Assembly (NCBI GenBank): GCA_948567375.1
Contig: OX419755.1
Span: forward strand, 53,462,291-53,526,290
Direction of reading: 5' to 3'
Source of the DNA: Lunularia cruciata
Taxonomy: Eukaryota > Streptophyta > Marchantiopsida > Lunulariales > Lunulariaceae
DNA length: 64,000 nt
The notes under the pieces were generated by a model that was not told the DNA's origin, searched no databases, and saw nothing but the letters and a program-made list of their open reading frames with translations. Shown piece after piece: positions 1,615 to 22,479 of the stretch (position 1 is the first letter of the stretch; each line of letters begins with the position of its first letter). Position numbers and translations under genes: made by a program.

Positions 1615-2999
1615 GTTTAGGTCCTAATATGATTCTTTAGTTTTCAACATTTGGGAAGGTTTTTAGAAGTGCATTTAGGGAGAAAAGACCATGATTGGAG
1701 ATAAGCAAACAAGCTATGGTGTAGAAACCAGAAACATAAAATTTGAGCAAATATTAAGCAAGATATGATAGATTTAAGCAAGGAGAGTCTAATTCATATC
1801 CAAACATACAATTTGGAAGATTCCAAGAGTTTTATTACAACTTTGGGCAGGTTCCAAGAGTTCTATTAAAACTCTCAACTAGATTGGAGAGTTAATAAAA
1901 TTTTAATCATGTTGAGCCCAAGAAAATTTATGATTGAGTTCATCTCAAATATGATATGACCAATTAAGGTTGGAGTACTTGAAATCAAGGTGTTAAAGGT
2001 TGAGATTATGATCAAGTTTGGGGTTTTGGTCACATCTAAAGTTCTAGTTTGAATCAACCTACAAAACTTTTTAGTATGTTTGTGGCTAGGTTTTGTCCCT
2101 TTGTGAAAAAAAATTCATGTGAATTACTCAAATATAAAAATGAAGGCCTTGGATAAATTATAATTAGGTCTATAGAGCTCATAACTCAACCCAACTTGGA
2201 AATTGATCCACAACTAGGGATTGAGTCTATATCTAGATACAAACCTTCACAAAGGTTTAGAAAGAGGAATAACCAACAATGGTGGAATATATGATTGGCT
2301 CAAGGTTTATAGGTAGTTAGATCTGATGCAACAAATTCTATTGAAATATTGTTATGAGCTTTGAGCTTTAAGTAGTTATACTATCTTCAACTACAATTGA
2401 ATAACAATTCTCCTCATTGAAATTATGATTGAAAGAATGATAGCTTGTTGGAGTGTCCTTTAGTCTTTACTTGAATACCTAAGCCAAAACTCTAGAAAAA
2501 ATTGTGCAAGAATCAAGATTGGAGCCTGGATTAGGGTTTTAAAATTAAGATTTGAATTACAAAGTCAAGCCAAGTTTGAGATGTTTTCAAAAGAGCTTTA
2601 ATGGTTAGATTAAGCTCACTTTATATCTTTGGAAAGCCTAGTAAGATCTAGAAAATTTGAAGAAAAGATTTAGTAAATAAGTTATCATAATCTGAGTCTA
2701 GCAAATATTTCTTCACTAAAAGGCATATAGTTTTACTATTTGGAGAACATGTTGGAAGAAAAACTTGGAGAACATATTAAGAGTAGCTCTTGGATAGATT
2801 AAGGAGGCTATGAAGCACATGTTTACCAAAATTATAAAGAGTTATTGTTAAGTTGCTTGTGTTTTGATCCTTTATGTGCTTTGCATGCTTGACTATATAC
2901 CCAATTGGTTTGGATTTGTGTGCAAGAATTGCACTTAATTTCCTTCCCTCTAGGTGTGCTATGTATTTCTTCTTGGCAATGTATCATGCGTATAAACAT
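1615..2999. other. AT-rich sequence without recognisable gene
   Basis: No coding frame longer than about 60 codons and no conserved motif was recognised. It is probably old repeat-derived DNA between two retroelement remnants. Confidence 0.5.
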
Positions 3000-3664
3000 T
3001 GCTACACAACATACATCACTACACAACATACGTCGCTGTCAACATCATACACTATAGAAGTACAACTCACACATAAGTCATACATAGATTGTAAAGTGCC
3101 ACAATAATCAAATTGTTTACCACTCTCAACTCAACTCAACTTAGATCAGTACTTGATCTGTCACTCTATAAATTGTCAACAACTGGGCATTGATTACAAT
3201 CAAGCCACACCTACTCTAGCTAAGAGAATCCAGGTGACGCTTTCCAGCCTTTGTCCACCATAGCTAGGAACTCAAAGGCTCAACATCAGAGAAGTGAGCT
3301 CTCTGGAGCTGCACTTTGAAATTATACCTCCTGGACTCAAGCTAGGTCTAAACCCTAACGGTCCCGCTGACGGCACACTCAACGGTGCAAATGGTGCAAA
3401 GTGATGGTGGGCGGCCCCACCGTGAAGTTAGTACCCCAAACACAAAATCTGACCGTCAAAAAATAGTCTTTGAGAAACTACTGAAATAACTCTAACTATT
3501 ATCACTAGAACTCTAGTGTTTGAGCAATCTAGATGCAACACTACAAATGGCGTGACAACTATCGTGCATATATACATTGCTACACAACATACATCGCTGT
3601 CAACATCATACACTATAGAAGTACAACTCACACATAAGTCATACATAGACTCTAAAGTGCCACA
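3000..3664 (-). repeat. Left LTR of the methyltransferase-bearing element, with duplicated end
   Basis: The 3105-3557 segment is a direct repeat of the composite right copy (10719-10769, 18602-18694, 20956-21266). The adjoining 3558-3664 runs to GTGCCACA and then a polypurine tract on the minus strand (GGGGGGTG), so the LTR probably starts TGTGGCAC at 3664. A ~105-bp block at 3000-3104 repeats 3558-3664, as if a second LTR start were fused next to this LTR. The right copy lacks the 3558-3664 part. Confidence 0.65.
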
Positions 3665-3665
3665 A

Positions 3666-3676
3666 TCACCCCCCTA
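3666..3676 (-). other. Polypurine tract of the old gypsy element
   Basis: The minus strand reads AATTAGGGGGGTGA immediately upstream of the LTR start TGTGGCAC. This is the expected position for the plus-strand priming site of an LTR retrotransposon. Confidence 0.65.
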
Positions 3677-3833
3677 ATTGGTGGTTAGGTCCCTCTAACT
3701 CTAGATAGCCATCTACTCCAAGTATATGGTATACCCTATGATGGGCAAAGATCAAGAGGCCGAGTGCTATGGAGCCCTATCGTTAGTCGCCTATCTGCAA
3801 TCTATACCATATAAAGAATGAACTAGCTATAGG

Positions 3834-4097
3834 TTAAATACATCTAGGACATAACCATTGTCCCTGAGGAACCATCATGAGGGGAGGAGTCATACGTGCC
3901 ATATGCCATCCTCTCAAATAGCTATCACACACTAACATAGTAGTAGCTCCACCAAAAGAGCCACATAACATACACCTCAAGCCTGCACGTACAAGTGCCA
4001 AGCTTGGGTCCATATAACCATCAATGTTTGGGAGGTGGCATGGCACACATTTGCGTACATGATCCTTCCAAACAACACCATCACGTCCTTCTAACAC
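3834..4097 (-). pseudogene. C-terminal PHD-finger-like domain of the gypsy polyprotein
   Basis: An 87-codon open stretch ends in a pattern with PHD zinc-finger spacing. Residues are numbered from the Met at 4097: C42-x2-C45-x11-C57-x2-Y60-x4-H65-x2-R68-x14-C83-x2-C86, with the aromatic W81 two residues before C83. Y60 and R68 stand where PHD fingers have zinc-binding cysteines; each is one base from a Cys codon. PHD fingers commonly bind histone H3 tails. The domain follows the integrase remnant on the same strand. The 4100-4420 linker also has stops. No intact function is expected now. Confidence 0.7.
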
Positions 4098-4399
4098 AAG
4101 GACTCCAAATGGAAAACCTCATGCACTCTCAAGATAGTACAGCCTATCAAAACATCAAGTGTCATTGGCATAGTCTCTTGTAGATATACATAGTCTCTTG
4201 GATGAAATCAACAGATCGAGGGTCTATATAACCTCCTCCACAAATGGTAGCATAGCATAGAGTATCTATATGTTGAGCAATTGCCTAGTTCTCAAAGGCC
4301 ATTGGCATCACTCTTCAAAAGATCTCTGCCCGCTGAGAACATGCGCTCATCCATACATCGGGGTCATCCAAGTCCAAAACTACAATAGCATCTCGACAA

Positions 4400-5515
4400 A
4401 TAGCTGCAAGTAAATTTGGATCTCATCCATAGAGTAGAAAGTACAGAGAGAAGGATGCTAAGGAGGCTTGCCGGCTGAACCGATAGCCCATGGCCAACCA
4501 AGGTAATTGGAGATCCCAATCTCCCAAGTGGCCTCTTTGCAAACCATACTTTTGCAATCCTCTCTTCACCATCTGAACCACTCTCTTTGCTAAGCCATCT
4601 GCCTCAAGGTGATCTCGAGAGGTAGTACGGTGATCAATCACAAAAAAAAGCCTTGTCACACAAGACCTGAAACTCCCCCAAGAACTCTGTACCCTGATCA
4701 GTCAAAACCTCAGCTTGTGCACCAAAATGATTAAGAACTCGATTCAAGAACAAGTAAGTTGTCCCTTCACTAGACTTGTCAGGAAGTGCCACCAACTCAA
4801 TCTACTTGGAGAAGTGCTCCACCATCACCAAAACATACCGATGATGTCTCACAATCAGCGGTAAAGGTCCAGCAAAGTCCAAACTCCAACGGTAACCCAA
4901 TCCCATGATAGGTAATGGGTGTAACTGTGGTGTGAGAGCATTGAATGATGCTATAACTCGGTCACAAACCACACATCTGGCAACAAATTGTTATACCTTA
5001 GTCTGCATACCATGCCGCCAATAATGGCTCTAGAGTAAGCTATATGTACGCTTTACTCCAAAATGTCCTAGCTCCTCATGAGCATGATGGACCAACTATG
5101 GTCTTTGAGATGGAAGTGGTACTACTCACATTCTACCATCCTCCCATACACGCAAAAGGTGTCTGCCTTCCAATCTGAACCATCTAGTTTGTTGAAGAAC
5201 ATGGTCTCTCTCCTTGGCCCCAACTATGCCACCTACAACACTAGTGCAAAGATAGTCCATCACTAAGACATCATCATGAATGTCTTGCTGAACTGTACCA
5301 ATATCTTCACTCTCCAAATCTGTGACCTCAATAACTCCTCTTGTATATGCTGAGAGAGATACCACCAAAGCCTCTAAAAATATACATAGAAAGGCAAATG
5401 CATGCCAACCTGGTATCATCTCCTCATCTGTCTCACCATGCCAATGTGCTCCGGTCTGATCTTCTTGGCTAGGATAAGGGTTTCTACTCAACCCATCTGC
5501 ATCACGGTTCACCAC
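4400..5515 (-). pseudogene. Integrase remnant of the old gypsy element
   Basis: The minus strand encodes fragments typical of Ty3/gypsy integrase. A post-RNase H linker (NRDADGLSRNP) leads to a zinc-binding region near 5.0 kb, a decayed catalytic core, and the downstream stretch with ADGLAKRVVQMVKRGL and GDWDLQLPWLAMGYRFS near 4.45-4.6 kb. Numerous stops are present. The strand and position between RNase H and the PHD-like domain fit one ancestral polyprotein. Confidence 0.75.
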
Positions 5516-5539
5516 TCCAAGTTTGTGAACAACCGTGAA

Positions 5540-5920
5540 ATCATACTCCTATAAAATCAGAGCCCATCATGCAAGCTTCCTTGAAAGCTTGTCGGACTCC
5601 ATCAACCACTTCAGTGGCTGATGATCAGTGATAAGAGTGAAGGGGTTACCAAATAGGTAACATTGGAAATGTGCTACTGCCCAAATTGCTACCAAATACT
5701 CTCCCTCATATAGACTATATTTCACCTCCGCTGAATTTTTGGAGCAACTAGCATATGCCACCACAAACTCCTTCCCCTCATCATCATGCTAGGTAAGCAC
5801 TGCTCCAAGCCCCAACACACTCCAATCAGAATGAACTTGAAATGGTTGTCCTCTGATCGGTCTCCTCAAAATAGGAGCAGATGTCAACCTCTCCTTGAGC
5901 TCTACAAAAGCTCTCTCCTG
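5540..5920 (-). pseudogene. RNase H remnant of the old gypsy element
   Basis: The minus strand reads a gypsy RNase H. It includes GAVLTQHDDEGKEFVVAYAS, YSLYEGEYLVAIWAVAHF and ITDHQPLKWLMESDKL, in the usual order after RT. The first catalytic Asp region reads VHSDWS, as in many gypsy elements. It is interrupted by few stops and adjoins the linker and integrase. Confidence 0.8.
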
Positions 5921-5929
5921 CTTATCTCC

Positions 5930-6750
5930 CTAACACCACTCTTGTGTAAGCTTGGTCAGCTTTGTCAAGGCCTTGGCAATGACACTAAATCCTCTAACAT
6001 AGTGGCAATAGAAGTTTGCCCACCCAAGGAATGCTTGCACTCTGCTCACATCCGTAGGCCAAGGAATATGTGGAATAGCCTCCACCTTGGTCTGCTGAAC
6101 ACCAAGTCCTCCGAGGTAGATAATGTGATCCAAATACTCAACCTGCTCATGGAAGAACTTACACTTCCCAAGATGTAATTTGAGTCCATGAGATCTCAAC
6201 CTCTCAAACACCTCCAACAACTGTCCCTCATGCTCCTCCACAGTAGTGCTATAGACCAAAATGTCATCAATATAGCACCAAGCAAAATCCAATCCAGCTA
6301 GGATCCTATCTATGACCCTCTAGAACTCAGCAAAGCGTTCTTTAACCCAAACGGTAAGAACCTCCGTTGATATAACACATCCTTGCCATGAGGATCAATA
6401 GCCCAAAATGGTGTCTTGGACTTATCCTCCTCCCTAATTGGCAACTAATGATATCCCGCTTGAAGATCCAAAGTAATGAAGACCTTTGCATGCCCAATTG
6501 CATCAAAAATCTCCTCTAGTGTAAGCATGGCATACCAATCAGCCCTAGTTTGTTGGTTGATAGGACAGTAATCTCCACACATCCGCCTATCTGTGTAGTT
6601 GCCATGCATATCCTTCTTGGCTGGCATCACTATCGCTGATGCATACTCTCCATGTGAAATCTTCACCAAACCAGCCTCAAAAAGGTCACTACTCCGGCTC
6701 TGAATCAATATCTTCTCCATCTCACTATCATCTCTCCATCTCCATCTCCA
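5930..6750 (-). pseudogene. Reverse transcriptase remnant of the old gypsy element
   Basis: Two open stretches cover the RT fingers and palm: VMPAKKDMHGNYTDRRMCGD, then FITLDLQAGYH, and a C-terminal part starting at 6292 with the catalytic YIDDI (codons 6263-6274), LGKCKFFHEQVEYL and VQAFLGWANFYCHYVRGFS. A gap with stops and a probable frameshift separates them near 6300-6440. The element would need only a few repairs here, but it is non-functional as it stands. Confidence 0.85.
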
Positions 6751-7317
6751 TTGATAAGGACATCAGAAAATTGGTGTATTACTAGTCAGCTCAATCCGTA
6801 TACCAGGTCACTTTAGAGCACACAAATCCTTCATACTGAAGGCAAAACAACTTGTGTTGCTCCTCAAGAACCTCCAAACCCTCAGTCTTTTCTCTCCAGT
6901 AAGCTTGGGCCAAGATCTGGCTCCCAAGTATCCTCTCTATTTGTAGTAGGAGTGGAAGACGTACTGACTGGCTGCTACATTGGGCCCTTGGGAGCAATAG
7001 TGTCATGCCCCCAACCAATAGAGGTCTCAACCTCTGTGTGAAAAACTCTCTCCACTCTAGCTGCAAGCTCCACACATCCTAGCTGCATCCCATGTGGACC
7101 AAGGGTGTAATCCAAGTAGCTCACGCTCACTTGGATGGACTCCAAGTAGACCACTCTCCCTAGTAGCTACTGGATGTGTCCCAAGAATACCATGCCCACT
7201 CTGTCTATCATCCCCAGCATATGCCTGAATCGTCTCAATAGGCACAAGACTCACAAGTGTCCAAGTGGTGATGCCTATCAAGCACATCCTACGCTACTCT
7301 ACCAAGCCAAGCCTCAC

Positions 7318-8265
7318 AATCTAGGTCAAACAATTCAGGTCCATAGCTTGACCTAACACCTGACGCCCCGATGCCTCTAACACTACTGGAATAGCGGTAA
7401 TACCGATGCAAAAACCCATTGCCCGCTCTCTCTCATCAACGTTGTGCTCCACCAACTGCTATAACTGTGAGTCCCAAACAAGTCCATGTCCTCTCTCTCA
7501 AAAAGCATGAGAGCATAGGAAACTCATGAGTGTAGGAAATGCGGCTTTAGGCTATCCAACTAGGTTCACCACTGCCATAGGTGACCTATTAGCCACTACC
7601 ACTGTTTGAGACTGACACCCAACATCCAAGATATCATCAACAAGGATGTGGTCAAGTCATTGAATCCCATCATAAGCACGCTGTAGAACCTCTTTGGATA
7701 AGAGGTTCGTCCACCAAATACAAAGACGATACGCCCGTGATCCCACTCTGGCTGCATCTAACAATACAGCAGGTCCTATCCAAGAATGGACCTGATGTGT
7801 ACTCGCCACCATTATGGTGCAAGAATCATCCATTAGAGGAATGTTCTCCAAAAGGTAAGCTGGAGAAACAAACTGCTGAGCCTGGAGATGTTGTAGTATC
7901 CATAGCATCTCCAAAAACACACCAGAACAAGGATCTTGAAGACCCAAACCTCTACTAGCACGTGTATGTCCTTGACATGGCCATCATGAAATCACCAAGT
8001 GAATAGGCCCATGTCTCTCCAGATCATGCGTCTCCTATAAGGAAATGTTTGCTGGTAGGGCCTCTTGGTAACCTTTGATTGTTGACATCGGTAATAACTC
8101 CTGATATTGATAGGCCAAGTGTGCCACATGATGTAGAGAGACTCGCCTAGCAGTCTTATCTCTCTCTACATACAAGTACCTCTGTACTTATATACTTGCC
8201 TATAATACCGCAGCTAGTCCGGTGCTAATCCCACCGAACAACTCCAATAGACACATCCCCTCTAT
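7318..8265 (-). pseudogene. C5-cytosine DNA methyltransferase-like domain inside a gypsy polyprotein
   Basis: One minus-strand frame, with about ten stops but no frameshift, carries the C5-methyltransferase motifs in canonical order. Motif I is LELFGGISTGL (8221-8247), the SAM-binding loop. A YVERD acidic strand follows. Motif IV is WPCQG with the catalytic Cys (7969-7983), then the RGLGLQDP continuation. Motif VI is LLENIPL (7840-7854). Motif VIII is SRAYRLCIWWTN (7705-7740). A motif IX-like stretch is DERERAMGF (7411-7437), and a motif X-like stretch is RQVLGQAMD (7339-7365). Order I-IV-VI-VIII-IX-X differs from the permuted plant DRM enzymes. It lies between the gag-like region and RT of the same element, on the same strand. 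The family methylates cytosine C5 in DNA; this copy cannot make full-length protein. Confidence 0.8.
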
Positions 8266-8399
8266 TGGATACTGCCAAGCAATCACCAACAAGCAACACC
8301 ACTACTCACTAGCTATTATTGACCCAAAAAATGAAGGTAAGGGTCTAACTCCACTAGGCCCTCCACTTGCTCCATAGGATCTAGGCTGTCCACCCTGTC

Positions 8400-9526
8400 C
8401 TCAAAAACCGATTGGGCATGGTGCACTCTGCTGCACTCTAGAAGAAGTCACAATTGTGGATGAGGTCTCCCTACCAAATCCAGATGTCACCACTCTCTCC
8501 TCCACCATGTTGAGCTCAATACGCTCAGCCAAACCAAAGAGTATTGCCAAAGTGAGCGAAGTAGCCTACAACAATGTAGCATCACAATCTCTACGTCGCA
8601 ACTCCTTGTCCAATATCCCATACCAAAATTGGACTGCCTGGGCCTTAGTAACTCCCTAAGTGAAACTAATCAACCACCTCATGTGAGTGTATGCCTTGTG
8701 TAGGCTCTCTCCAGCCTTCTGCTGGAACTCCTACAAGCTCCTCAGCTTGTTAGTCCGCACTCCTTGGTAGTTTTGCCTCAAATACAGGAAGAACGCCACC
8801 ATGGGGTTAAACCTTGGTACCACACCACCTCCTGCAACGGTACTTCCACTTGTTGTAGCACTTTCTCTAGCAAGTGCACTATCCCACTAGCTCCACTAAC
8901 ACTACTTGAGCTAGAACTCATAGGTATAGCCAATCTACTCTTGGCCACCAAACTTGAAGTGATAAGAGACATAGTTTGGAGACCAATACTGTCTCCATAA
9001 CTTGATCTCCTCCAAATGAGCTCTCTTGAACTGATGGTAGTCATCCATTGGTAGACTCTAAATGCTGAAACAACCCTTTCCATGCCATGAAAGGTGTAAA
9101 CAAAGTCGGGTTCCGCATCTGTTGTAGATCACACCAACTATTGAACTCTTAGATGAAGTCATCCAACTCAGTGGTACCCACTCTACCAAAGTGTTAATGC
9201 CTATGGCGTGTGGAGGCCCCATAAATCTTGTCCATGTTCCACAACAACAGTGCAAACACACCAAGTGCACTCTCAAGTGAATCAACTCCTGTGTCAAACT
9301 CCAACTTAGAGTCAATCTCCTCCCTCATTGGGACCTGAGATACAAGCTGATACCGAGTACCACTCCAAGTAAACCCACTGCGTATTGTAGGGCTATCTCC
9401 TCTGGAATCCCCAAAGAACTCCGTCATGACAAAGTAACCGCAACCGCAAACTGCAAGAGCAAACCGGAACCACAAACTGTAACCGCAAGTCGCAACCACA
9501 AGTACCCCACCAAGTGCCAACACCAA
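8400..9526 (-). pseudogene. Gag-like region of the old gypsy element
   Basis: Upstream of the methyltransferase domain, the minus strand shows decayed open stretches: a start-like MTEFFGDSRGDSPTIRSG near 9425, then FNSWCDLQQMRNPTLFTPF, and a region rich in Ser/Gly before 8.4 kb. The position right after the leader and before the enzymatic domains, plus a capsid-like W/F pattern, suggests gag. No clear CCHC zinc knuckle survives, so the call rests mainly on context. Confidence 0.5.
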
Positions 9527-9839
9527 CTAAGCACCACTCACTAATGTAACTCTAACCAAGATAACTACACTAGGGGAAAGACAACCTGTAACCTGCCATC
9601 ACAACACGCACTCTCATGGTCTGCAAGTCATCACTTCTTGCCTCACCGGAGAGAAACAAAGATAGTCTAACTGGTCATCACTCCAACCTCACTACCAAGA
9701 GCACACTAGAGCACCAATGCTCAAAAGTCAAGGCACTTCACACAAACATGGTGCACAAATAGGAAGTAGAGAATGGAGAGGGTCCAATCACAAGAAATCT
9801 AAACAAAATCCCTCCATCTCATAAAACAACATGAGACTA

Positions 9840-9851
9840 ACTCTGCCACCA
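9840..9851 (-). other. Probable primer-binding site of the old gypsy element
   Basis: The minus strand reads TGGTGGCAGAGT, matching 9 of 12 positions of the initiator-Met tRNA type site TGGTATCAGAGC. It lies just upstream of the gag-like region. If correct, the upstream LTR starts near 9854 and continues through the nested insertions to 21266. An alternative is a decayed site near 10710. Confidence 0.45.
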
Positions 9852-9853
9852 TT

Positions 9854-10769
9854 TGGCATTTGATATAAGAGAAGTTTGTATCTAAGTCTTAAGCTACCAA
9901 GATCACCAAGAATGGGATCAAATTGCCTCTCTTAGCCAAAGCTACAAGTGTATAGATAATAGTGGCACAATCACTAGGACAACAAGTGAGGGTGGACCAG
10001 TTGACTAGGACACCAGTCTAGGAACAAGAGATCTAGGGGTCAAACCCTATTGCGCACAATCTAGCAGGATGGGGAGATTTTGCCAACCAATGACCAAGAT
10101 CTACTCTAAACTAGCTAGCCTCATGCCAACAAGCTAGCTTGTTGCCCCTTCTAGGCCTTCATAGCCTCTCATAGCCCACAACCCTATGCCTTGAAGCCTC
10201 AAAATGCCAAAATTCATCTAAATGAGGCCTTTCTCCTTGATTTGGCAAAACCTCCTCCAAAATTTGGCAAAACTCCTCCAAATCTGACATAAAATCTAGC
10301 CAAAATCTGACATAAACCCTAAAGTTGGCTGACCGCCAAATCCCTTGCTAACTTTTCACTCAGGCCAAATTGAAAACGTGGGTTTCTCTAAATCACAAAT
10401 TCTCGAGAATAGCTTCCCAACTCCACCTTCAATTTTACTTTTTGAGCCCAAATTGCAACAAATTGGTCTTGCCTTCACCTCTTGAGCTCAAAATCACAAC
10501 CACTGCTTAAAATTTGCTCCTTGTGTGCTTGAAAATTGGCTAGAGCTTCATCACACAATCTGCTTTACTGCCAAATTTCCATCAAGCAACAAGCTTCTGC
10601 ACACTAGGGAAAAACTAAACTTCAATCGAGCTACCAATGATCCATCAAGCTTGGAGATACCACCAACACTCAAAGTTCTTACACTCAATTTCCCCCTGAT
10701 TTCACTTCTTTGATATAATCAGATTGTTTACCACTCTCAACTCAACTCAACTTAGATTAGTACTTGATC
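9854..10769 (-). mobile_element. Upstream LTR of the old gypsy element, first segment
   Basis: The segment 10719-10769 matches 3105-3155 of the left LTR. 9854-10718 has no counterpart in the left LTR, which seems truncated. C/A-rich sequence without coding capacity fills it. The LTR is broken at 10769 by the young element and resumes at 18602. Confidence 0.5.
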
Positions 10770-11461
10770 TGTAACACCCATTTGTGCATGTGTGTGGTAT
10801 TGTGATATTTAGCTTGGTATTACAAGTACTTAAGAGATATTATTTATATAGAGATAAAGGATGGTTCTATATTAGTCATGGTTAGCTAAAGTTAGTCATA
10901 GCTAAGATAGATGGGACCTTACTTTAGAGGAAGTAGAAAAGATGAGCACCACTATTTTGGATTTTAGTGTGTTGACTGGGTATTATTCTTAGGTGTTTGG
11001 CTTTGGGGAAAGAGTTGAGAACTCTTGGGCCCGCAAGCCTTTTTGTTTTGGATTCTTCTTTAGTCCAAGGATAGCCCATGTGAAGGAATCCTTGCTTTAG
11101 TGGTTGGGTCAAGATAAGACCACATGCTTAGGGGAATATGCCCATGTGAATGGATATTCCTTTCTACTTTTTGACTTTACTTGACTTTTAGTCTAGTAAC
11201 TTGAGTTACTACGGTAATTAGTAACTTTGGTACGTAACTATTTCACAAGTATATAAACAAGGAGTGAGGAGGTACTCATCATCCTTTCATTTGCAACTAT
11301 CTCTCTCTCATTGAGTTCTCTAGTGAGCAATGTCTTGAGTCTTGGAGTGTTAGCCATGGAGGAGTATGATGGAGTTGGGGTTCCTTGCCTTCTTAGTCCA
11401 TGGTGCGCTACCATAATAGCCATCAGAGGTTCATCCTGAGTGAGAGACAGGCCGGCTCACA
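10770..11461 (+). repeat. 5' LTR of the young element
   Basis: It starts TGTAACACCC and ends GGCCGGCTCACA. A TATA box-like TATATAAAC sits at 11250-11258, followed by a pyrimidine-rich transcript-start-like region. It is identical by eye to 17910-18601. Confidence 0.95.
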
Positions 11462-11465
11462 TTTT

Positions 11466-11483
11466 TGGTTCCGTTGCCGGGAC
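11466..11483 (+). other. Primer-binding site, tRNA-Asp type
   Basis: TGGTTCCGTTGCCGGGAC begins four bases after the LTR. It matches the tRNA-Asp-complementary primer site TGGCGCCGTTGCCGGGG used by Tat/Athila lineages, with a few mismatches. Confidence 0.8.
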
Positions 11484-12297
11484 CTCTCTAGAAGGCAAGA
11501 TAATATTCCGCGTCCAATTCTACATTAGGCAGAAGGAGGCTATGAGAGCTCACTTGGAGAGAACATTAGGAGAGGAGAGGGCTGAACTTATGTTAGAAAA
11601 CCAAGATCCATTTGTATACCCTGTAGTTCATTATGATGTCTTTGAGGTGATTTTGTACATCTTGTACACATGAGAGGAATTGGAGAGATTGTGTGAGGTG
11701 GATTGTAGATTTTGGGGATTAAGGTGATTTTGGGCAAAATCTCAAGTTTGAGATCTGGACTTGAGATTTATACACATGATAGCTTGGGTTATCTTTCAGT
11801 TAGCACACTTGAAATTATTGAGAGAGCTTCTATGCGCACTGGGCTAGAATTTTTGAAAGTTGATAGGGTAAAGTGCTCCCGCAACTGCATGCTCTCTGGA
11901 AAATTGTACAGAGTCTGCCATTTCTTCAATTTTTAGTGAATTGTCCTGAAAATTTCCAAGAAAATTCAGTGCATTGTATCCTACCTGGTGCCACAAAAAT
12001 TAGAGAGAGATCATTTTTGCGCAGTGCGTTATGAGTTTTTGAAGTGAGGGGGGTGGTTTTCAGACCAAATCTGAAATATGGGTGCTGAATAGAAAGGTGT
12101 CTAGGCCAAATGGCTCGATGAAAAGATCTAAAATTTTGCAGGGAGGGACGCCCTAGAGTTGTGATCAAGTGTGGAAAATTTCAGAGGACTGTGACATATT
12201 CGTTGGGAGATTTGAGTGACATTGTGAGGAAGGGTCAATTCTGCAGAGTGGAGATCTCATGCATGAGAAGTTTGAGATCAACAAAAAGCATGTTTGA
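11484..12297 (+). other. Leader of the young element, with a short ORF
   Basis: No long coding frame. An open stretch ending at 11673 (ending PFVYPVVHYDVFEVILYILY) resembles another short ORF at 12798-12963 (ending PFVFPRVDYSQMVLVMYILY). This suggests an internal duplication or short leader ORFs. The function is unknown. Confidence 0.45.
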
Positions 12298-12795
12298 GTG
12301 TTTAGATTCATCTTTGGGAACATGGAGGGTCATCAAGAGTGGAAATTGAGATTATGCAAGGTTCCCCAAGGGTTTGAGGTGATTGTAGGGGTGGATTTGA
12401 GGAAAAGAGAGTTTACAATAGAATTTGAAGAGAGTGTTGAGAGGATCCAAAAACCTACACCACTTGGAGGAAAGAGTGAGTCTAAGTGCTTTCTATGTGG
12501 AGAGAAGGGACATAAGGCAAGTTCATGTCCATTAACCTTTGAGAGCAAGAGATTGAGGGAAAGGAGAGGCTTACTTGACTTGGGTTTGCATGTTGGACCT
12601 TCTTCACCAAGATTGGGAGGGAGAAGATCTAAGACCAAGGAGTTGTGTGAGGTTTGTGGAGTTGAAGGACTTCCAAAAGGACATGAGTGTAGTGGAGTAA
12701 AAGCACTTTTGGAAACTTTGGTGAAGGATCTTGGAGAGAGTCTTAGTACAGCTACAGAAATACTACCACCTTCATCAGCTAGTTCTCAAGATTAG
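12298..12795 (+). CDS. Extra upstream ORF with two zinc-binding motifs, unknown function
   Basis: A 165-codon ORF lies ahead of gag-pol in the young element; a second ATG at 12322 would also serve. It contains a canonical CCHC knuckle, C-x2-C-x4-H-x4-C (CFLCGEKGHKASSC, about residues 63-76), and a second motif C-x2-C-x8-H-x-C (CEVCGVEGLPKGHEC, about residues 117-131). Between them is a basic Arg-rich stretch. The CCHC knuckle suggests nucleic-acid binding, as in Gag nucleocapsid, but gag-pol has its own knuckle, so this is an additional protein. Tat/Athila relatives often carry extra ORFs, although usually after pol. I do not recognise the product. Confidence 0.6.
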   Translation: MFRFIFGNMEGHQEWKLRLCKVPQGFEVIVGVDLRKREFTIEFEESVERIQKPTPLGGKSESKCFLCGEKGHKASSCPLTFESKRLRERRGLLDLGLHVGPSSPRLGGRRSKTKELCEVCGVEGLPKGHECSGVKALLETLVKDLGESLSTATEILPPSSASSQD

Positions 12796-12797
12796 TG

Positions 12798-12963
12798 ATG
12801 GAGATAATCTTTCAACTTATGGATAAACTATCCATGAGAGTTAGATTAATATGCACTCTAGGATTTGATGTTGCTATAGAAATCTTGGAGCAACCTGAAC
12901 CTTTTGTGTTCCCTAGAGTGGATTATTCTCAGATGGTGTTAGTCATGTATATACTCTATTAGT
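12798..12963 (+). other. Short ORF resembling the leader ORF
   Basis: It runs from ATG at 12798 to TAG near 12963, ~54 residues, ending PFVFPRVDYSQMVLVMYILY. The leader ORF ending at 11673 has the same pattern. It immediately precedes a purine-rich tract and the gag-pol ATG. The role is unknown and may be non-coding duplication. Confidence 0.35.
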
Positions 12964-13035
12964 AATAGAGTGAGAGAAAAGAAAAGAGGAAAAAAAAAAA
13001 AATTTGAGAGAAAAGAAAGATAGTGAGGGGTTAAG

Positions 13036-16000
13036 ATGGGGAAACTTCCGGTTTTCTTTGGCAAGGATGGAGAAGATGTGGAGGCCTTTGTGAGAGACTT
13101 CAAGAGAGCTTGCATAGGAAACAATGAGAGGAGGAAGAATGAGTGGGCCTCATTATTACCAGATTTCTTTGAGGATGTAGCACTTACATGGTATGAGTCA
13201 GAATACCAAAAGAGAGAGAGGAGAGAGGGGGAAGAGGAGTCTTGGGAGACTTTGACTTCAGCACTCATTGAGAACTTTCTTCCTGATGAGAGTTATGAGA
13301 GATTGATGAGTGAGGTTACATTTCTCAAGCAAGGAGATGGAGAGAAAGTGAGAGTCTATGTGGAAAGAGTGGAAAAATTGGAGTCCAGATTTCGCATAGT
13401 GTTGAGGAAGGGTGGGGATGATGTGGAGACTACAATGATTGGCATAGGAGCCATGCTCACCAAGAATTTTGTGGGAGGATTGAGACCACAAATTAGAAGC
13501 AAGGTGAGATATGAGAAACCTTCTTCCAAGGTTGAAGCTATCAAGATCGCAATTCGTATGGAGGAGAGTTTGGAAGGGGATGAAAGTGATTTGGTGGTGA
13601 AGGAGGTTGTGCATCCTCCTCAAGGCTACAAGTATGGTGGAACTTCTGATACTTTGGTGACAAGGGTTGCACCACAAGTAGTAGTTGCTCCAGTTCTTGC
13701 ACCTCCACCAAAAGATCCACTCCAAACCATCACAGAACAACTTGCGGATCTCAAGATCAATGTGGTGCAATTATGGGAGAAGAGAGAGGTGGATCAGAAT
13801 GTAGGGAGAGGGCCTAGGAGTTATGGAAACCATCCATATAGAGGAGGCCAACCAGCCAACAATTTCAATGATAGAAATTGTTTTGGTTGTGGGGGAAGAG
13901 GCCATATCCAAAGGAATTGCCCAAATTCCACTTACCATGGAGGAAGGGGTTATGAGGGAGCCAATAGAGGGAAAGAGGGAGGTAGTGAAACCCAAGTGGC
14001 TCCTAATCCCAACAAAGGTAAGGGGATAGCATCGATAGATGTGGTTGAGAGCAAGTATGAGAAGGGAGAGTGCTCAAACTCCAAGGGTCCTAATTTGGAG
14101 CTTTTGGCACAAGAGAAGAAGAGAGCTCGTTTTGCAGAGGATGTTCACTCTTCTCAAGGATTTACTTCAAGCAAGGATACTCCTATGTCTACTAGGAGCA
14201 CTCGCACCTCAACACCATCAACAACAAAGACTCCAAGGAAGAAGTTGGGGATGGAGGACTTCTTGATCTCCAAGCAACAATGGAACTACAATGTGTTGGA
14301 GGATGTTGGTAGTCACAAGGCTAACATCACAGTGGGCCAATTAATTGCTTTGAACCCTACCTTGAGAAAGGAGCTTAGAGGTGGTTTGAGTTCTACAAGG
14401 AGCAAGAAGAAGAAGAAGGCAAAAGTTCCAATATCAATGGGGGTGGTGGATGCCAAGCCAGCACCATGGGAAGCTTGTGAATATGCCTCCAAGATTGATG
14501 TGAGAGTGAATGGTCACAACATCAAGGATGCATTGGTTGATGGAGGATCAGCAGTGAATGCCATGTCAGAAAGGTTGATGAAGAAGTTGGGTATGATACC
14601 CTCAAGAGCTTCAACATTTGTGGTGAGCATGGCAAACAAGCAACAAGTTCGACCAGTAGGAGTGATGGATAAGGTGGTAGTTTCAGTTATGGGAGTTCAA
14701 AATCTCATGACTTTCCAAGTCTTGAAGGATTCAAGCTATGACTTACTTCTTGGGAGGCCATGGTTGAGAGCAGCACGCACAACTGATCGATGGCACAAAG
14801 GGTACTTAAGGATTGGGCCATCAAACCATAGAGTCACTGTTCCTGTGACTAACACCACCAACACTTCACATTCAGATACCCCATCTTCTGATTATTGGGA
14901 ATCTGATTCTGAAGGAGGAGCTTCAGGTGTAGACACAAGCATGGAAGAGGAGACTTCCACGGAGGAGGATGAATCTGAATCTGATTCAGATGTGTATCCT
15001 TTGTGTGCTATGGATTTTGCACCTAAGCCAGAGGTTTTGAAGGACCCAGATAAATCACCATTGACACTTGAGGAGGTAGAGAGAAGGTTATCTACCCTCA
15101 AGTATGGCCCAAATGTTACCAAGGAGGAGAAGGTGAGATTTGAGGAGATTTTCCGCAAGTTCATCCATGTGTTTGCTTTTAGTTACAAGGATTTGAAGGA
15201 AGTCACCTTGGAGGAGCACAAGATAGAGGTGGAGTCACATGCAAGACCAATCCGCCAAAAGCAACGTCGCATTAGCCCACCAATATCTTTGGTTGTGAAG
15301 GAGGAGATTGATAAGCTCAAGGAGGCTGGATTTATCTTTGAGGTGGAGAATTCAGAATGGGTGTCTCCAATTGTCATTGTGAAGAAAAAGAATGGCAAGC
15401 TTTGGGTATGTGTGGATTACAAGAAGCTCAATGCTGTTACCAAGAAGGACTACTACCCATTGCCATTCATTGATGAGATCTTGGAGGAGGTTGCAGGTCA
15501 TGAGAGGTACAGTTTTGGAGATGGTTATAGTGGATATAACCAAATCAAGATTGCACCAGAGCATCAACAACTCACCACATTCACCACACCTTGGGAAACT
15601 TACGCTTTCAAGGTCATGCCTTTTGGGCTTTGCAATGCTCCAGCCACATTCCAACGGTTCATGAACAAGGTATTTGAACCTTTCATTGGGAAATTTGTGA
15701 GAGATTTCATTGATGACTTTTGTGTCTATGGGAGCAAGGAGGAGCACTTTGAGCACCTAATCAAAGTCTTGCAACGCTTGGATGAGGCAAATGCATCACT
15801 CAACCCAGAGAAGTGCATTTTTGGATGTGAAGAAGGTCTACTTTTGGGGCACATCATCTCCAAGGATGGAATAGCAGTTGATCCTGAGAAGGTGAGGAAA
15901 ATCTCAGACCTTCCATTCCCTTCAAGCTTGACAAAGTTACGCCAATTCTTGGGAATGGTTGGGTACTATAGGAGGTTCATCTTCTCATTTTCCAACAAGG

Positions 16001-17685
16001 CTTATGCATTGACCATCTACATGAAGAAGGGTGTAGATTACATGGTGATTTTGGAAGACAAGGAGGCTCTCAAAGCTTTTGAGGAGCTCAAGCAATCCCT
16101 TGTTGTAGCTCCAATTCTTGCTAAACCTGATTGGAGTAAGCCTTTCATCCTCTACACTGATGCTTCTAATGTAGCTATAGGATGCACTCTTAGTCAATTA
16201 GACCAAGATGGGCATGATCATCCAATAGCTTATGCTAGTAGGCAGATGGTTTCAGCAGAGAAGAACTACTCTGTCACAGAGAGAGAAGGGTTGGCAGTGA
16301 TCTTTGGTCTCAAGAAGTTTAGACACTACTTGATTGGAGGGAAAGCCACAATTGTCACGGATCACAAGGCTTTGAAGTACATCTTCAACAAGCCTAATGT
16401 TGAAGGGAGACTAGCAAGGTGGATGATTCTCTTGTCTGAGTATGACTACACAATTGAGGATAGGCCAGGAAAGAAACATGCAAATGCTGATTTGTTATCT
16501 AGAGCCTATGATCATGATGGAGATGAGCCAGTAGATGATTCCTTCCCGGATGAGGAGCTCATGACAATCTCAGTCACTCAAGAGGTTCCAATGGAGTACA
16601 AGGAGATTGTGGATTTTGTGACAAGAGGTAACTATCCAGAAGGGATGCATGCTAGGGAGAGGAAGGCCCTTGCAGCAAGATCTAGACCTTACACAATGGT
16701 GGATGATATTCTTTTTCACCAAGGAGCAGATGGTCTACTTCGAAGAGCAGTGGGTAAGGAAGAGTCTATCCTACTCATAAAGGAGTTTCATGAAGGTTTA
16801 GTATGTGGAGGACACTTTGCAGGAAAGGTGACTGCTTTCAAGATTCTAGATGCAGGTTACCATTGGAGAGGGATTTTCAAGGATTGTCTTGATTATTGCA
16901 AAACTTGTCATGTTTGTCAAGCTTTTGCTAGAAAGTCTACATCCACTCCACCACTTAGATCAACTCCATTGCTAGGACCCTTTGAGAAGTGGGGAATTGA
17001 TTTTGTAGGACCTCTCAATAGAACCCCAAGGAACAATCGGTACATTGTGGTAGTTACTGATTACCTTACCAAGTGGGTTGAGGCTAGACCATTGAGGGAC
17101 AAGAATGAAGATGAAGTGGGTAGATTTCTTTATGAACGCATTATCACTAGGTTTGGATGCCCTTTGGAGTTGGTTTCTGATAGAGGAGGAGAGTTTACAG
17201 GAAGCATTACTACAGCCATGCTACGACATTTCTCTATCACACATAGAGTAACTACATCCTATAAGCCAAATTCCAATGGCTTGGCAGAGAGAACCAATCA
17301 GACCTTGTGCATGATGTTGGCCAAAGATGCAGAAATGGAGGGGGCTAAACATCATTGGGACAAGAGGATTCATGCAGTTTTGTGGGAGTATAGGACAACC
17401 ATGAAGACTTCCACTGGATATTCTCCATTCCAATTGGTGTATGGTATTGAGTCTACCTTACCTATTCACTTTGATCTTCCTACCTTCCAAAGCATTCATA
17501 GGAGATTGAAGAAAGCACAAGGAAGTGATGCAGAGAAGTCAAGGAAGGATCAACTCATGGAGTTGGAAGAGGCAAGAGCAGTTGCTATGGTTGAGTGGAG
17601 CAAGCCCAAAGGAAACAAAAGGAGAGCTATGACAAGAGGCAAGGCAAGAAGAAGGTGGAGCCTTTCAAAGAAGGTGATTGGGTAA
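13036..17685 (+). CDS. Gag-Pol polyprotein of the young Ty3/gypsy element
   Basis: The 1549-residue ORF provides capsid, replication and integration functions. Domains in order: retrotransposon gag about 10-200; CCHC knuckle 282-295 (CFGCGGRGHIQRNC); aspartic protease with VDGGSAVN, D502; reverse transcriptase about 740-950 with the palm motif FIDDF (891-895; Phe in place of the usual Tyr); RNase H from D1042 (YTDASNVAIG); integrase zinc-binding HHCC H1252/H1260/C1291/C1294; integrase core D1322, D1382, E1418 (D-x59-D-x35-E). There is no internal stop. The ATG at 13036 follows a purine-rich tract and is the first Met of the frame. The end is abnormal: after about residue 1518 the frame leaves the conserved integrase tail, which continues in the -1 frame to 17861. 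Confidence 0.93.
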   Translation: MGKLPVFFGKDGEDVEAFVRDFKRACIGNNERRKNEWASLLPDFFEDVALTWYESEYQKRERREGEEESWETLTSALIENFLPDESYERLMSEVTFLKQGDGEKVRVYVERVEKLESRFRIVLRKGGDDVETTMIGIGAMLTKNFVGGLRPQIRSKVRYEKPSSKVEAIKIAIRMEESLEGDESDLVVKEVVHPPQGYKYGGTSDTLVTRVAPQVVVAPVLAPPPKDPLQTITEQLADLKINVVQLWEKREVDQNVGRGPRSYGNHPYRGGQPANNFNDRNCFGCGGRGHIQRNCPNSTYHGGRGYEGANRGKEGGSETQVAPNPNKGKGIASIDVVESKYEKGECSNSKGPNLELLAQEKKRARFAEDVHSSQGFTSSKDTPMSTRSTRTSTPSTTKTPRKKLGMEDFLISKQQWNYNVLEDVGSHKANITVGQLIALNPTLRKELRGGLSSTRSKKKKKAKVPISMGVVDAKPAPWEACEYASKIDVRVNGHNIKDALVDGGSAVNAMSERLMKKLGMIPSRASTFVVSMANKQQVRPVGVMDKVVVSVMGVQNLMTFQVLKDSSYDLLLGRPWLRAARTTDRWHKGYLRIGPSNHRVTVPVTNTTNTSHSDTPSSDYWESDSEGGASGVDTSMEEETSTEEDESESDSDVYPLCAMDFAPKPEVLKDPDKSPLTLEEVERRLSTLKYGPNVTKEEKVRFEEIFRKFIHVFAFSYKDLKEVTLEEHKIEVESHARPIRQKQRRISPPISLVVKEEIDKLKEAGFIFEVENSEWVSPIVIVKKKNGKLWVCVDYKKLNAVTKKDYYPLPFIDEILEEVAGHERYSFGDGYSGYNQIKIAPEHQQLTTFTTPWETYAFKVMPFGLCNAPATFQRFMNKVFEPFIGKFVRDFIDDFCVYGSKEEHFEHLIKVLQRLDEANASLNPEKCIFGCEEGLLLGHIISKDGIAVDPEKVRKISDLPFPSSLTKLRQFLGMVGYYRRFIFSFSNKAYALTIYMKKGVDYMVILEDKEALKAFEELKQSLVVAPILAKPDWSKPFILYTDASNVAIGCTLSQLDQDGHDHPIAYASRQMVSAEKNYSVTEREGLAVIFGLKKFRHYLIGGKATIVTDHKALKYIFNKPNVEGRLARWMILLSEYDYTIEDRPGKKHANADLLSRAYDHDGDEPVDDSFPDEELMTISVTQEVPMEYKEIVDFVTRGNYPEGMHARERKALAARSRPYTMVDDILFHQGADGLLRRAVGKEESILLIKEFHEGLVCGGHFAGKVTAFKILDAGYHWRGIFKDCLDYCKTCHVCQAFARKSTSTPPLRSTPLLGPFEKWGIDFVGPLNRTPRNNRYIVVVTDYLTKWVEARPLRDKNEDEVGRFLYERIITRFGCPLELVSDRGGEFTGSITTAMLRHFSITHRVTTSYKPNSNGLAERTNQTLCMMLAKDAEMEGAKHHWDKRIHAVLWEYRTTMKTSTGYSPFQLVYGIESTLPIHFDLPTFQSIHRRLKKAQGSDAEKSRKDQLMELEEARAVAMVEWSKPKGNKRRAMTRGKARRRWSLSKKVIG

Positions 17686-17861
17686 TGTTGTTTGATTCCA
17701 TTCGATTCAAGAGAGTACAAAAGAAGTTTTTGCCTAAGTACTTTGGACCTTTCATAGTAGAGAAGGTGTGGGGAAATTACACTTATGATCTCAAGGAGTT
17801 GGGAGGAAGACACTTTGATAGGATTAACCATGATAAGTTGAAGATGTACCATAGAAGGTAG
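17595..17861 (+). CDS. Integrase C-terminal tail in the -1 frame
   Basis: This frame continues the integrase after the main frame runs into unrelated sequence. It holds KQKESYDKRQGKKK, then FKEGDWVMLFD, FLPKYFGPFIVEKV, YDLKEL and NHDKLKMYHRR, the usual SH3-like C-terminal domain of gypsy integrases. It has no obvious start of its own. Either a one-base deletion around 17590-17640 broke the polyprotein, or a -1 ribosomal shift in the A/G-rich stretch joins the frames. Deletion is the simpler reading. Confidence 0.75.
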   Translation: MEQAQRKQKESYDKRQGKKKVEPFKEGDWVMLFDSIRFKRVQKKFLPKYFGPFIVEKVWGNYTYDLKELGGRHFDRINHDKLKMYHRR

Positions 17862-17895
17862 AGAGACCTTCACTTTGAGGACAAAGTGAAAACTT

Positions 17896-17909
17896 AGTCC
17901 GGGGGTAAA
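17896..17909 (+). other. Polypurine tract of the young element
   Basis: GTCCGGGGGTAAA lies directly before the 3' LTR start, at the position where plus-strand priming takes place. Confidence 0.8.
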
Positions 17910-18601
17910 TGTAACACCCATTTGTGCATGTGTGTGGTATTGTGATATTTAGCTTGGTATTACAAGTACTTAAGAGATATTATTTATATAGAGATAAAGG
18001 ATGGTTCTATATTAGTCATGGTTAGCTAAAGTTAGTCATAGCTAAGATAGATGGGACCTTACTTTAGAGGAAGTAGAAAAGATGAGCACCACTATTTTGG
18101 ATTTTAGTGTGTTGACTGGGTATTATTCTTAGGTGTTTGGCTTTGGGGAAAGAGTTGAGAACTCTTGGGCCCGCAAGCCTTTTTGTTTTGGATTCTTCTT
18201 TAGTCCAAGGATAGCCCATGTGAAGGAATCCTTGCTTTAGTGGTTGGGTCAAGATAAGACCACATGCTTAGGGGAATATGCCCATGTGAATGGATATTCC
18301 TTTCTACTTTTTGACTTTACTTGACTTTTAGTCTAGTAACTTGAGTTACTACGGTAATTAGTAACTTTGGTACGTAACTATTTCACAAGTATATAAACAA
18401 GGAGTGAGGAGGTACTCATCATCCTTTCATTTGCAACTATCTCTCTCTCATTGAGTTCTCTAGTGAGCAATGTCTTGAGTCTTGGAGTGTTAGCCATGGA
18501 GGAGTATGATGGAGTTGGGGTTCCTTGCCTTCTTAGTCCATGGTGCGCTACCATAATAGCCATCAGAGGTTCATCCTGAGTGAGAGACAGGCCGGCTCAC
18601 A
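17910..18601 (+). repeat. 3' LTR of the young element
   Basis: It is identical by eye to the 5' LTR, with TATATAAAC at 18390-18398, ends in CTCACA and is followed by the target duplication GATCT. Confidence 0.95.
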
Positions 18602-18694
18602 GATCTGTCACTCTATAAACTGCCAACAACTGTGCACTGATTATAGTCAACCCACACCCACTCTAGCTAAGAGAATCCACATGACACTCACCGG
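18602..18694 (-). mobile_element. Upstream LTR of the old gypsy element, middle segment
   Basis: It matches 3156-3246 of the left LTR. It lies between two younger insertions, ending at CCGG where the next insertion begins. Confidence 0.8.
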
Positions 18695-20955: not shown

Positions 20956-21266
20956 CCGGCCTCTGTCCACCATAGCCAAGAACTCAAAGGCTCAGCATCA
21001 AAGAAGTAAGCTCTCTGGAGCTGCACTTTGAAAGTATACACCCTGGACTTGAGCTAGGTCTGAACCCTAACGGTCCCATTGACGGCACACTCAATGGTGC
21101 AAATGGTGCAAAGTGACGGTGGGCCCCACCGTGAAGTCGGTACCCCAAACACAAAATCTGACCGTTGGAAAGTAGTCTTTGAGAAACTACTGAAATAACT
21201 CTAACTATTATCACTAGAACTCCAATGTCCAAGCAATCTAGATGTGACACTACAAATGGCGTGACA
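20956..21266 (-). mobile_element. Upstream LTR of the old gypsy element, last segment
   Basis: It aligns with 3247-3557 of the left LTR at high identity (shared runs such as AAGCTCTCTGGAGCTGCACTTTGAAA). Similarity stops at 21266 (GTGACA), while the left copy continues another ~107 bp to its polypurine tract. The right LTR is therefore truncated or interrupted here. Confidence 0.8.
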
Positions 21267-22479
21267 AATGCTAGAAGTGATGACCAACAAACCAAGAGTA
21301 TGTGTTGTGATGACAAGTTAGATTGCACCTTTTTTCCATTATTTGATAGGAGGAACCTTCCCCTTTATTTATAAAGATAAAGGTAGAAGGTTTCAATGGT
21401 TGGGAAGACAAGTGGGCACCAATTATTAGTGATAGATCTACATACAACCTCCTATTTTTAAACTCTACAACTAGATACCTAGTGTGTTCCCAAAAAGAGA
21501 AAAGTGTAATACAACACCAATTGGGAATGTCAAGGATTTCCAATAGTTGGTTTGGAAGAAGGTTTAAGTGATTTAAGACCATATCTCTCAATGGACATGG
21601 TGCAAGTTATCACTTGGGCCCAAGCTCTCTACCCTTCTCTTGAATATGTGATTTAGAATATTCCTAGTATGATCAATGAGAGAAGGTCCAAGAACACTTC
21701 CTTGCAAAACTACTTTTACTTGATGTAGTGCAATGTGATTCCCATACACATCAATTGTGGAACTTATGGACAAACCTTGCACCTCTTTCTCTATTATATA
21801 ATTATCCTTGAAATACACCATCAAAGATCCTAATCTCCAAGTTTCTCAAATATTTGATGTTAATAGCTCTTGCCAACCAATTACAAGTCAAGAGAAGGCT
21901 ACATGGTTTCTGGAAAACATCATTGGGCTAACTCTGTGTCATTCCAAGTACACATGCTTTCCAATAAGATGGACCAAGTCTTGTGTATTGTCATTCTACA
22001 AATACATAAGATGAACTGAGCTCTAAAGAGAGAAAAAGATCTATGGGATTCCAATTTGGCACTACTAGTCACACCAAGGTAACTAGATTGGAGTGCAATG
22101 CTCCATTGAGGAGATTGATAGACCTTAATGTCCTTACACAACCTTTAGTCCCATGTATACTCTTTCAAATGTATATCCTCCCACATTTGGTGCTTAATTA
22201 TTTAATTATATAGGTTTGTACACATGCCATCAAGATCAAGTCCATTTGTCAATCCTCAACACTTTATCCTTCATGCCAATTGTTGGGAGAGAGGAACCAT
22301 GTAATTTAATTTAATTTTCTTTTGGGAGCAGACCTGAAACTAGATTAGGTTTTGGTGAGGAAAGTATGGTAGTTCACAATATTACTAGCTTGGACAATGG
22401 AGAAGCTAGCAAATAAAGATTTTTAAGCACATATTTGGTCTCTATTCCTTGAATAACTAATTATTCTTTCATCATAGGT
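21267..22479. other. Unassigned sequence
   Basis: Only short open frames, none with a motif I recognise. It is probably repeat-derived and lies between the old LTR and the RT relic. Confidence 0.4.

Follow-up and report, generated by a model that had tools for sequence, protein, structure and literature searches.

The question raised by this locus is whether a retrotransposon of the liverwort Lunularia cruciata carries a DNA methyltransferase of its own. The window, by which is meant the whole stretch of 64,000 nucleotides that was analysed, came with a preliminary description made from the letters of the sequence alone, which held that a decayed frame at positions 7318–8265 encodes a C5-cytosine methyltransferase (DNMT) as part of a Ty3/gypsy element. 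That the frame is a methyltransferase of the DNMT3 class, and that it was captured by a large Ty3/gypsy family, can jointly be regarded as nearly certain. For what the enzyme may do for the element, proposals of differing strength are made below.

On the minus strand, positions 7285–8259 hold a decayed C5-cytosine methyltransferase frame with 10 in-frame stops, close to the extent first claimed. As had been described, one frame carries LELFGGISTGL, WPCQG, LLENIPL, SRAYRLCIWWTN, DERERAMGF and RQVLGQAMD in the canonical order, which are presumably motifs I, IV, VI, VIII, IX and X, the labels being those of the preliminary description. At the catalytic motifs, PCQ is kept in the window copy and the ENV position reads ENI. 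The extent was taken from a profile built from database relatives with the window row left out, which matched the window over 8259–7285 (434 bits, E 6.8e-132). A phmmer search of 5.8 billion proteins returned 167 relatives of the window DNMT at E<=1e-3, the best with E=1.8e-124 and 62% identity over 98%, and the Pfam domain PF00145 is present in most of the best of them (among the matches listed, the best 120 of the 167). PF00145 was also the match on which the preliminary description had staked its claim. Taken literally, on the decayed copy, this went against the claim, as Pfam returned nothing for the whole frame (E<=10) or for its longest stop-free piece (E<=1); all four stop-free copies scanned from the same genome came out above the cut-off, with E values of 2.2e-6 to 5.8e-8, and the miss on the window copy is therefore put down to decay. 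That Pfam alone misses the decayed copy is the point in favour of a chance resemblance in a shuffled or low-complexity frame; this reading is contradicted by homologues at such E values and by the absence of any match to the relatives' profile in 20 dinucleotide shuffles of the whole window, and it was rejected as having practically no probability.

The decay itself has a recognizable pattern. Seven of the ten stops stand at columns that are mostly Q, R or W in the relatives, which is the outcome expected of C-to-T or G-to-A changes; the other three are not of that type, the relatives having there mostly G, L or I, and a mixture of letters. The window copy departs from the stop-free copies at 86 of the sites on which 18 or more of 20 agree, and 55 of these changes are C>T or G>A. 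Such an excess is as expected for methylated, silenced DNA, whoever the methylator.

By profile, fold and motif order, the window frame is a DNMT3-class C5-cytosine methyltransferase. A class profile of 23 rows, one of them the window frame, matched DNMT3A (2qrv) at E 2.7e-21 and DNMT3B at E 1.7e-19, followed by a partial match to DRM (4onj) at E 4.3e-13, then DNMT2 (1g55) at E 5.2e-8 and the bacterial HhaI at E 7.4e-6. An AlphaFold2 model of the relative P0002, computed with 31 other database proteins (mean pLDDT 80.4, pTM 0.84), found DNMT3A (8tdr) as its first structural match (E 1.5e-17, TM 0.80 by target length, 22% identity), so that both profile and fold place the domain nearer DNMT3 than DRM, DNMT2 or the bacterial enzymes. 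The motifs run un-permuted from I to X, as they do in the catalytic domains of DNMT3A and DNMT3B, which are the best profile and fold matches; the element enzyme differs from these in its low identity of about 22%, in its fusion to a Gag-protease and in having a separate PHD finger on the integrase, and no PWWP or ADD domain was found among the Pfam matches of the window element, the relatives and the copies scanned. A quick tree, which included a single DNMT3A row and only four bacterial ones, places the window DNMT with Marchantia proteins (SH-aLRT 100), separate from the bacterial rows; DNMT3A sits on a long branch of unsure placement. A captured DRM was considered and rejected, the profile match to DRM being weaker and partial in comparison with DNMT3A. 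Plant DRM is likewise DNMT3-related, but its motif order is rearranged (PMC5890265, cited here and below for the part of its text that was available), whereas that of the element is not. Thus the claim of a C5-methyltransferase other than DRM has held up by profile, fold and tree.

The frame belongs to a dead Ty3/gypsy element that occupies positions 2982–21266 on the minus strand and is interrupted by two nested insertions. Read in its own direction, the element consists of a repeat A1, gag, DNMT, reverse transcriptase (RT), RNase H, integrase, a PHD finger and the repeats B1-A2-B2. A1 survives in three pieces, the outer one (20956–21266) being the 5' end of the element, TGTCACGCC, followed by a middle piece (18602–18694) and an internal-side piece (10715–10769). 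Behind these come a gag remnant in broken frames (8293–9235; tblastn to Marchantia Mp_4g09160, here P0122, at 47–68% identity) and the DNMT3-class domain with its in-frame stops (7285–8259; profile, phmmer and fold). Residues 305–872 of P0122, which hold zinc knuckles and the protease, have no tblastn match in the window, which points to an internal deletion; its junction lies at 8283–8293 (tblastn) and puts gag next to DNMT in this copy. The reverse transcriptase (6125–6909) runs over two frames and was recognized by PF00078 (E 1.2e-11 and, below the cut-off, 2.4e-4), by tblastn to ORF2 of a contig named L001 and by a tree. It is followed by RNase H (5543–5926; PF17917 1.2e-27, PF17919 6.2e-25) and by an integrase with an H2C2 zinc-binding part and an rve core (4655–5110; PF17921 1.5e-13, PF00665 1.9e-8). 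The C-terminal part of the integrase ORF is a PHD finger (3840–3974), found by PF00628 and by tblastn to L001 ORF2; in the decayed window copy PF00628 gives E 5.6e-4 and 20.3 bits, below the Pfam cut-off of 24. A GGGGGG polypurine tract then precedes B1 (3556–3668), which is followed by A2 (3105–3555, about 90% identical to A1) and by B2 (2982–3104, 93% identical to B1), the 3' end of the element, and exact 4-bp target-site duplications, AATG, stand on the distal (2978–2981) and proximal (21267–21270) sides. Divergence between A1 and A2 amounts to about 10%, with transitions (38) outnumbering transversions (10), as against 1.8–3.5% between the A repeats of seven other copies, and the window copy is therefore the older.

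The assignment to Ty3/gypsy, as first proposed, has been confirmed by the RT, RNase H and zinc-binding and rve integrase that lie behind the DNMT on the same strand, and by a tree in which the window RT groups with the RTs of DNMT-bearing relatives. RT, RNase H and then a DDE integrase occur in this order in the window, in the relatives and in the other copies, and the target-site duplication has the short length of 4 bp. In place of two ordinary LTRs, the element has split repeats in the arrangement A-internal-B-A-B, and its classification as gypsy therefore rests on the proteins, the ends being unusual.

Nested in A1 on the plus strand is a younger Ty3/gypsy without DNMT (10770–18601), which has identical 692-bp LTRs (10770–11461 and 17910–18601), a 1,552-aa open frame and a nearest named relative in Marchantia (70% over 58%); further copies of its LTR lie at 1–270 and 27119–27796. 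The second insertion nested in A1 (18695–20955) begins TGTTAGGG and has internal repeats near 19957–20500, and the one frame of it that was scanned gave no Pfam match. A second, much older DNMT remnant (21519–22141) with an RT remnant (22539–23355) belongs to another gypsy on the plus strand (21519–23355, by profile and tblastn); its DNMT scores 58.7 and 24.6 bits with the profile in two frames and matches at about 25–35% identity by tblastn, and the 64-kb window accordingly holds two DNMT elements. The preliminary description had overlooked this remnant, as well as the insertions in the 5' repeat, the PHD finger, the split repeats and the deletion between gag and DNMT. Elsewhere in the window, 54404–57025 and 61368–63985 are 2.6-kb copies, 85% identical, with reverse-transcriptase-like frames (PF00078 at E 2.4e-6, below the cut-off, in the one scanned), and an exon-like isocitrate/isopropylmalate dehydrogenase frame at 34422–34934 on the plus strand (PF00180, E 3.7e-22) is probably a host gene. 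The ratio of observed to expected CpG is 0.27 in the DNMT element, 0.15 in the DNMT-free young gypsy, 0.03 over 21300–24600, the area of the older remnant, and 0.44 over 24600–64000. CpG depletion was considered as a sign of self-methylation and rejected, being no stronger in the DNMT element than in the young gypsy that lacks the enzyme.

Bursts of Ty3/Gypsy elements in L. cruciata have been published (available text of PMC9985172), and the DNMT-bearing family is itself a large one. When the genome (565.77 Mb in 74 contigs) was searched with up to 3 mismatches, a 29-base stretch over the PCQ motif was found in 3,745 places and a 30-base stretch over DERERAMGF in 2,845; the reversed-pattern controls for both gave none. 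The best 122 of 13,200 first-look candidates, the window's own match among them, were scored for the DNMT, and all of these cover residues 1–328 or 1–329 of 329; 54 of the 122, which are the best candidates, have no stop inside the domain, and the longest open frames containing it reach 1,448 aa. In 20 stop-free copies, FGG, PCQ, ENV and DERERAMGF are always present, RAHR is found in 19 and LGQAMD in 18. These copies are 71.7–74.5% identical to Marchantia P0122 and differ among themselves by 2.2% on average. Summed dN over summed dS comes to 0.35 across 190 pairs of these copies, and to 0.21 among the quarter of pairs that have the highest dS; both values are biased downwards by the choice of stop-free copies. 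In seven colinear flanked copies, with few changes to count, dN/dS is 0.49 for the DNMT, 0.26 for RT, 0.38 for RNase H, 0.85 for integrase and 0.14 for the PHD finger, and the 0.89 of a 600-bp linker is probably distorted by an indel. Purifying selection on the element DNMT is indicated by these ratios, which come from sequence comparison.

The layout of better preserved copies bears on whether the methyltransferase is encoded by the retrotransposon at all. Eight copies picked for open DNMT frames were taken with about 6 kb on each side. In all eight, residues 1–880 of P0122 (gag, CCHC and protease) are collinear up to the DNMT, which forms the C-terminal end of the Gag-protease frame. Ahead of the DNMT, this frame is fully open over 1,001–1,021 residues in five of the eight; in the other three, where a stop lies in gag, it is open for 624–711 residues. 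A second frame, from RT to integrase and resembling L001 ORF2, starts about 300 bases behind the DNMT in every one of the eight, so that DNMT precedes RT throughout this sample, itself picked by its DNMT; the ORF2-like match extends through the PHD finger in seven, the eighth having an insertion, and as scanned this second frame is interrupted in all eight. The preliminary description had proposed a search for relatives with gag, methyltransferase and RT in one ORF; gag and DNMT share one open frame in five of the eight, and RT is in a second frame. Ten further copies, obtained from the first 15 exact PCQ-motif matches on the first contig with five left out, and thus again picked by the DNMT, show DNMT and then RT at similar spacing in all ten, and a protease match before the DNMT in nine. 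A host DNMT pseudogene with a gypsy inserted in or beside it would account for the window copy taken alone, decayed and with nested insertions as it is, but such a pseudogene is contradicted by the RT behind and the protease before the DNMT in these further copies, by the open frame that runs from gag through DNMT in the flanked ones, and by the same order in the Marchantia proteins P0125 and P0133 and in contig L001. It was rejected as highly improbable, and the DNMT is treated below as a part of the element.

The same copies bear out the unusual ends. Repeats in the arrangement A-internal-B-A-B (A about 450 bp and B about 107 bp long) were found in seven of the eight flanked copies, and no A repeats were found in the remaining one. 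The elements end in TGTC...GACA, and exact 4-bp duplications flank six of seven copies besides the window copy. In seven of seven copies, B1 is preceded by a polypurine tract and linked to A2 by a GC that creates the palindrome GACAGCTGTC. No clear tRNA primer-binding site was seen behind A1 of the family copies; ATCAGAG at that place resembles part of the usual initiator-Met site.

The preliminary description had suggested that a land-plant case would extend what was known from algae and dinoflagellates, and the database relatives support it. Besides the long proteins, the named shorter relatives among the matches listed are from Calypogeia fissa, Sphagnum troendelagicum, Sphagnum tenellum, Marchantia polymorpha, Marchantia paleacea and Riccia sorocarpa, and one further relative carries the name of a bacterial MAG; with that one exception, the named relatives are from liverworts and Sphagnum. 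A search of viral sequences in IMG/VR gave 41 stretches that matched the peptide pattern, none of which encoded a DNMT relative. Among GTDB genomes, 38 stretches matched and five encoded a relative, namely L001 and four Streptomyces enzymes, the latter serving as outgroup. L001, 9,285 bp long, is a contig assigned to a Synechococcales (cyanobacterial) MAG, and it holds a whole gypsy-DNMT-PHD element with 127-bp identical ends; its presence there is probably eukaryotic contamination.

The DNMT occurs in 36 long proteins, 15 of them named Marchantia polymorpha and one Sphagnum fallax, and these fall into two types. Type 1, with no RT before the DNMT, accounts for 27 of the 36; a CCHC or protease motif precedes the DNMT in 20 of the 27, and RT, RNase H or integrase follows it in six. 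In type 2 (nine of 36) the DNMT lies behind RNase H, with integrase behind it in eight of the nine. Pfam found a PHD finger in five of the 36 long proteins, all of type 2, and in type 1 the finger was seen in the window copy, L001 and the family copies; in four full-domain relatives scanned, PF00628 gives E values of 1.4e-7 to 2.2e-13. The RT tree, with 35 other rows for comparison, unites both types and the window element in a single clade (95/73, not starred), within which type 2 is supported at 99/96 and type 1, with the window pieces, at 100/98. From these comparisons the two types are read as what may be one PHD-bearing lineage with the DNMT in two places. Two independent captures would explain why the DNMT stands before RT in one type and behind RNase H, before integrase, in the other, and why the DNMTs of the two types form separate groups in the DNMT tree; the single RT clade, with the support just given, and the PHD finger at the integrase end of both types fit one capture and a later move instead, and two captures are thought rather unlikely. 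Among other gypsy-like polyproteins, P0181 combines a C5 methyltransferase and an SLBP histone-hairpin RNA-binding domain with RT, RNase H and a chromodomain, and has a Dam-type adenine methyltransferase and an integrase each just under the cut-off; the gypsy polyprotein P0172 has a SET domain (PF00856) among its listed Pfam domains.

Methyltransferases carried by retrotransposons of dinoflagellates and charophytes had been mentioned in the preliminary description, and the available text of PMC5890265 bears this out. The closest case is the gypsy of the charophyte Klebsormidium nitens, KnitGypsy-Dnmt3, which has Dnmt3 in its Pol ORF and DIRS-like repeats. It shares with the Lunularia family the Ty3/gypsy domains, an un-permuted Dnmt3-class domain, the A-coding-B-A-B repeats and purifying selection, reported there and indicated here (PMC5890265). 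The two were compared by description, as no sequence named K. nitens was among the matches listed in the phmmer search, and they differ in several respects. The DNMT is reported to lie in the Pol ORF of KnitGypsy-Dnmt3, whereas in the Lunularia family it ends the Gag-protease frame and RT is in a second frame; the Lunularia family has a land-plant host and about 2,800–3,700 motif-bearing places; and PHD, present in Lunularia, does not occur in the main text on KnitGypsy-Dnmt3 (PMC5890265). SymbioDIRS-Dnmt3 and SymbioLINE-Dnmt are likewise retrotransposon-borne C5 methyltransferases, but belong to other retrotransposon classes with tyrosine recombinase or LINE machinery and are independent captures (PMC5890265). 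DIRS retrotransposons have a tyrosine recombinase, whereas the window element and its relatives have an rve/DDE integrase and no Phage_integrase among their Pfam matches. Like chromoviruses, the Lunularia family is a Ty3/gypsy group in which a domain resembling histone readers follows the integrase, but it has a PHD finger, split repeats and a DNMT, and no chromodomain was found at the integrase C-terminus among the Pfam matches of the window element and relatives, the PHD finger being there instead. An article of 2019 gave such transposons as absent from land plants 'such as tracheophytes' (available text of PMC6338049), and no report of DNMT retrotransposons in bryophytes was among the matches listed from the accessible parts of the open-licence literature, preprints excepted. 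The land-plant hosts, the position of the DNMT on the Gag side, the PHD finger and the copy number are apparently new.

As to function, the layout suggests a course of events in which the Gag-protease-DNMT protein would be packaged with the element RNA and the enzyme, after reverse transcription, would methylate double-stranded cDNA of the element itself; new copies would then arrive already marked and be quickly silenced. That the family methylates its own copies, as the preliminary description had supposed, is plausible, and methylation of its own cDNA in particular is given about an even chance. Data from related enzymes are mixed, in that dinoflagellate SymbioDIRS enzymes methylate CG in yeast, and with the charophyte gypsy enzyme no methylation was seen in yeast, a result its authors call inconclusive (PMC5890265). 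The young DNMT-free gypsy at 10770–18601 spread beside the DNMT element, and a DNMT is therefore not needed for spread.

The integrase-borne PHD finger may read histone H3 tails and steer insertion, as the chromodomains of chromoviruses do. Among the nearest structures in the PDB to the PHD finger of P0147, a type 2 protein, are the PHD fingers of LID/KDM5, CHD4, ATXR5, KMT2D and BAZ2. Several of these bind H3 that is unmodified at K4. Targeting of insertion by the finger is put at somewhat short of even. For the repeats, reverse transcription is predicted from the polypurine tract to yield B-A-internal-B-A; a DDE integrase opening a two-LTR circle of this product at the B-GC-A junction (GACAGCTGTC) would give A-internal-B-A-B, and the split repeats therefore fit such a route, which is put forward tentatively. 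The explanation as a whole (a family with a captured DNMT3, a packaged enzyme, methylation of its own cDNA, targeting by PHD and the circle route) is thought rather probable.

Two other views of the enzyme were weighed. In one, the domain no longer methylates DNA and is now a nucleic-acid-binding or RNA-modifying part of Gag, which would suit its place on the Gag side and the RNA methylation suggested for the LINE case (PMC5890265); PCQ and ENV, however, are kept in 20 of 20 stop-free copies and nearly invariant in the relatives, and the domain is nearest DNMT3A/B and far from DNMT2, so that this view is held improbable. In the other, the enzyme acts on the host, many copies adding broad de novo methylation that blurs host marks or competes with host pathways. 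An effect of this kind has been proposed for dinoflagellates (PMC5890265), the number of motif-bearing places would allow for it, and the methylome study of M. polymorpha counts five methyltransferases in three classes (MET, CMT and DRM), with transposon copies not included (available text of PMC5784723). Against it, fusion behind Gag and protease suggests confinement to the particle unless the protein is processed, and the charophyte methylome is plant-like despite such elements (PMC5890265), and action on the host is considered quite improbable. Methylation of the element's own cDNA is the preferred reading.

The capture of DNMTs by retrotransposons, reported from a charophyte alga and dinoflagellates, thus extends to land plants, namely to liverworts and Sphagnum. 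As the count of five enzymes in the M. polymorpha methylome omits transposon copies (available text of PMC5784723), whether transposons make a share of the methylation may be a question that has gone unasked. In its boldest and rather doubtful form, drawn from sequence comparison, the proposal is that a gypsy lineage of land plants joins a chromatin writer, a DNMT3 packaged at the level of Gag, to a reader, an integrase PHD finger for H3 without K4 methylation; pre-methylated copies would be delivered into quiet chromatin, self-silencing would have let the family reach thousands, and transposon DNMT3 genes would far outnumber the host methyltransferase genes in a liverwort. Why a selfish element would carry the very kind of enzyme that silences such elements can now be asked in these bryophytes, a tractable group of plants.
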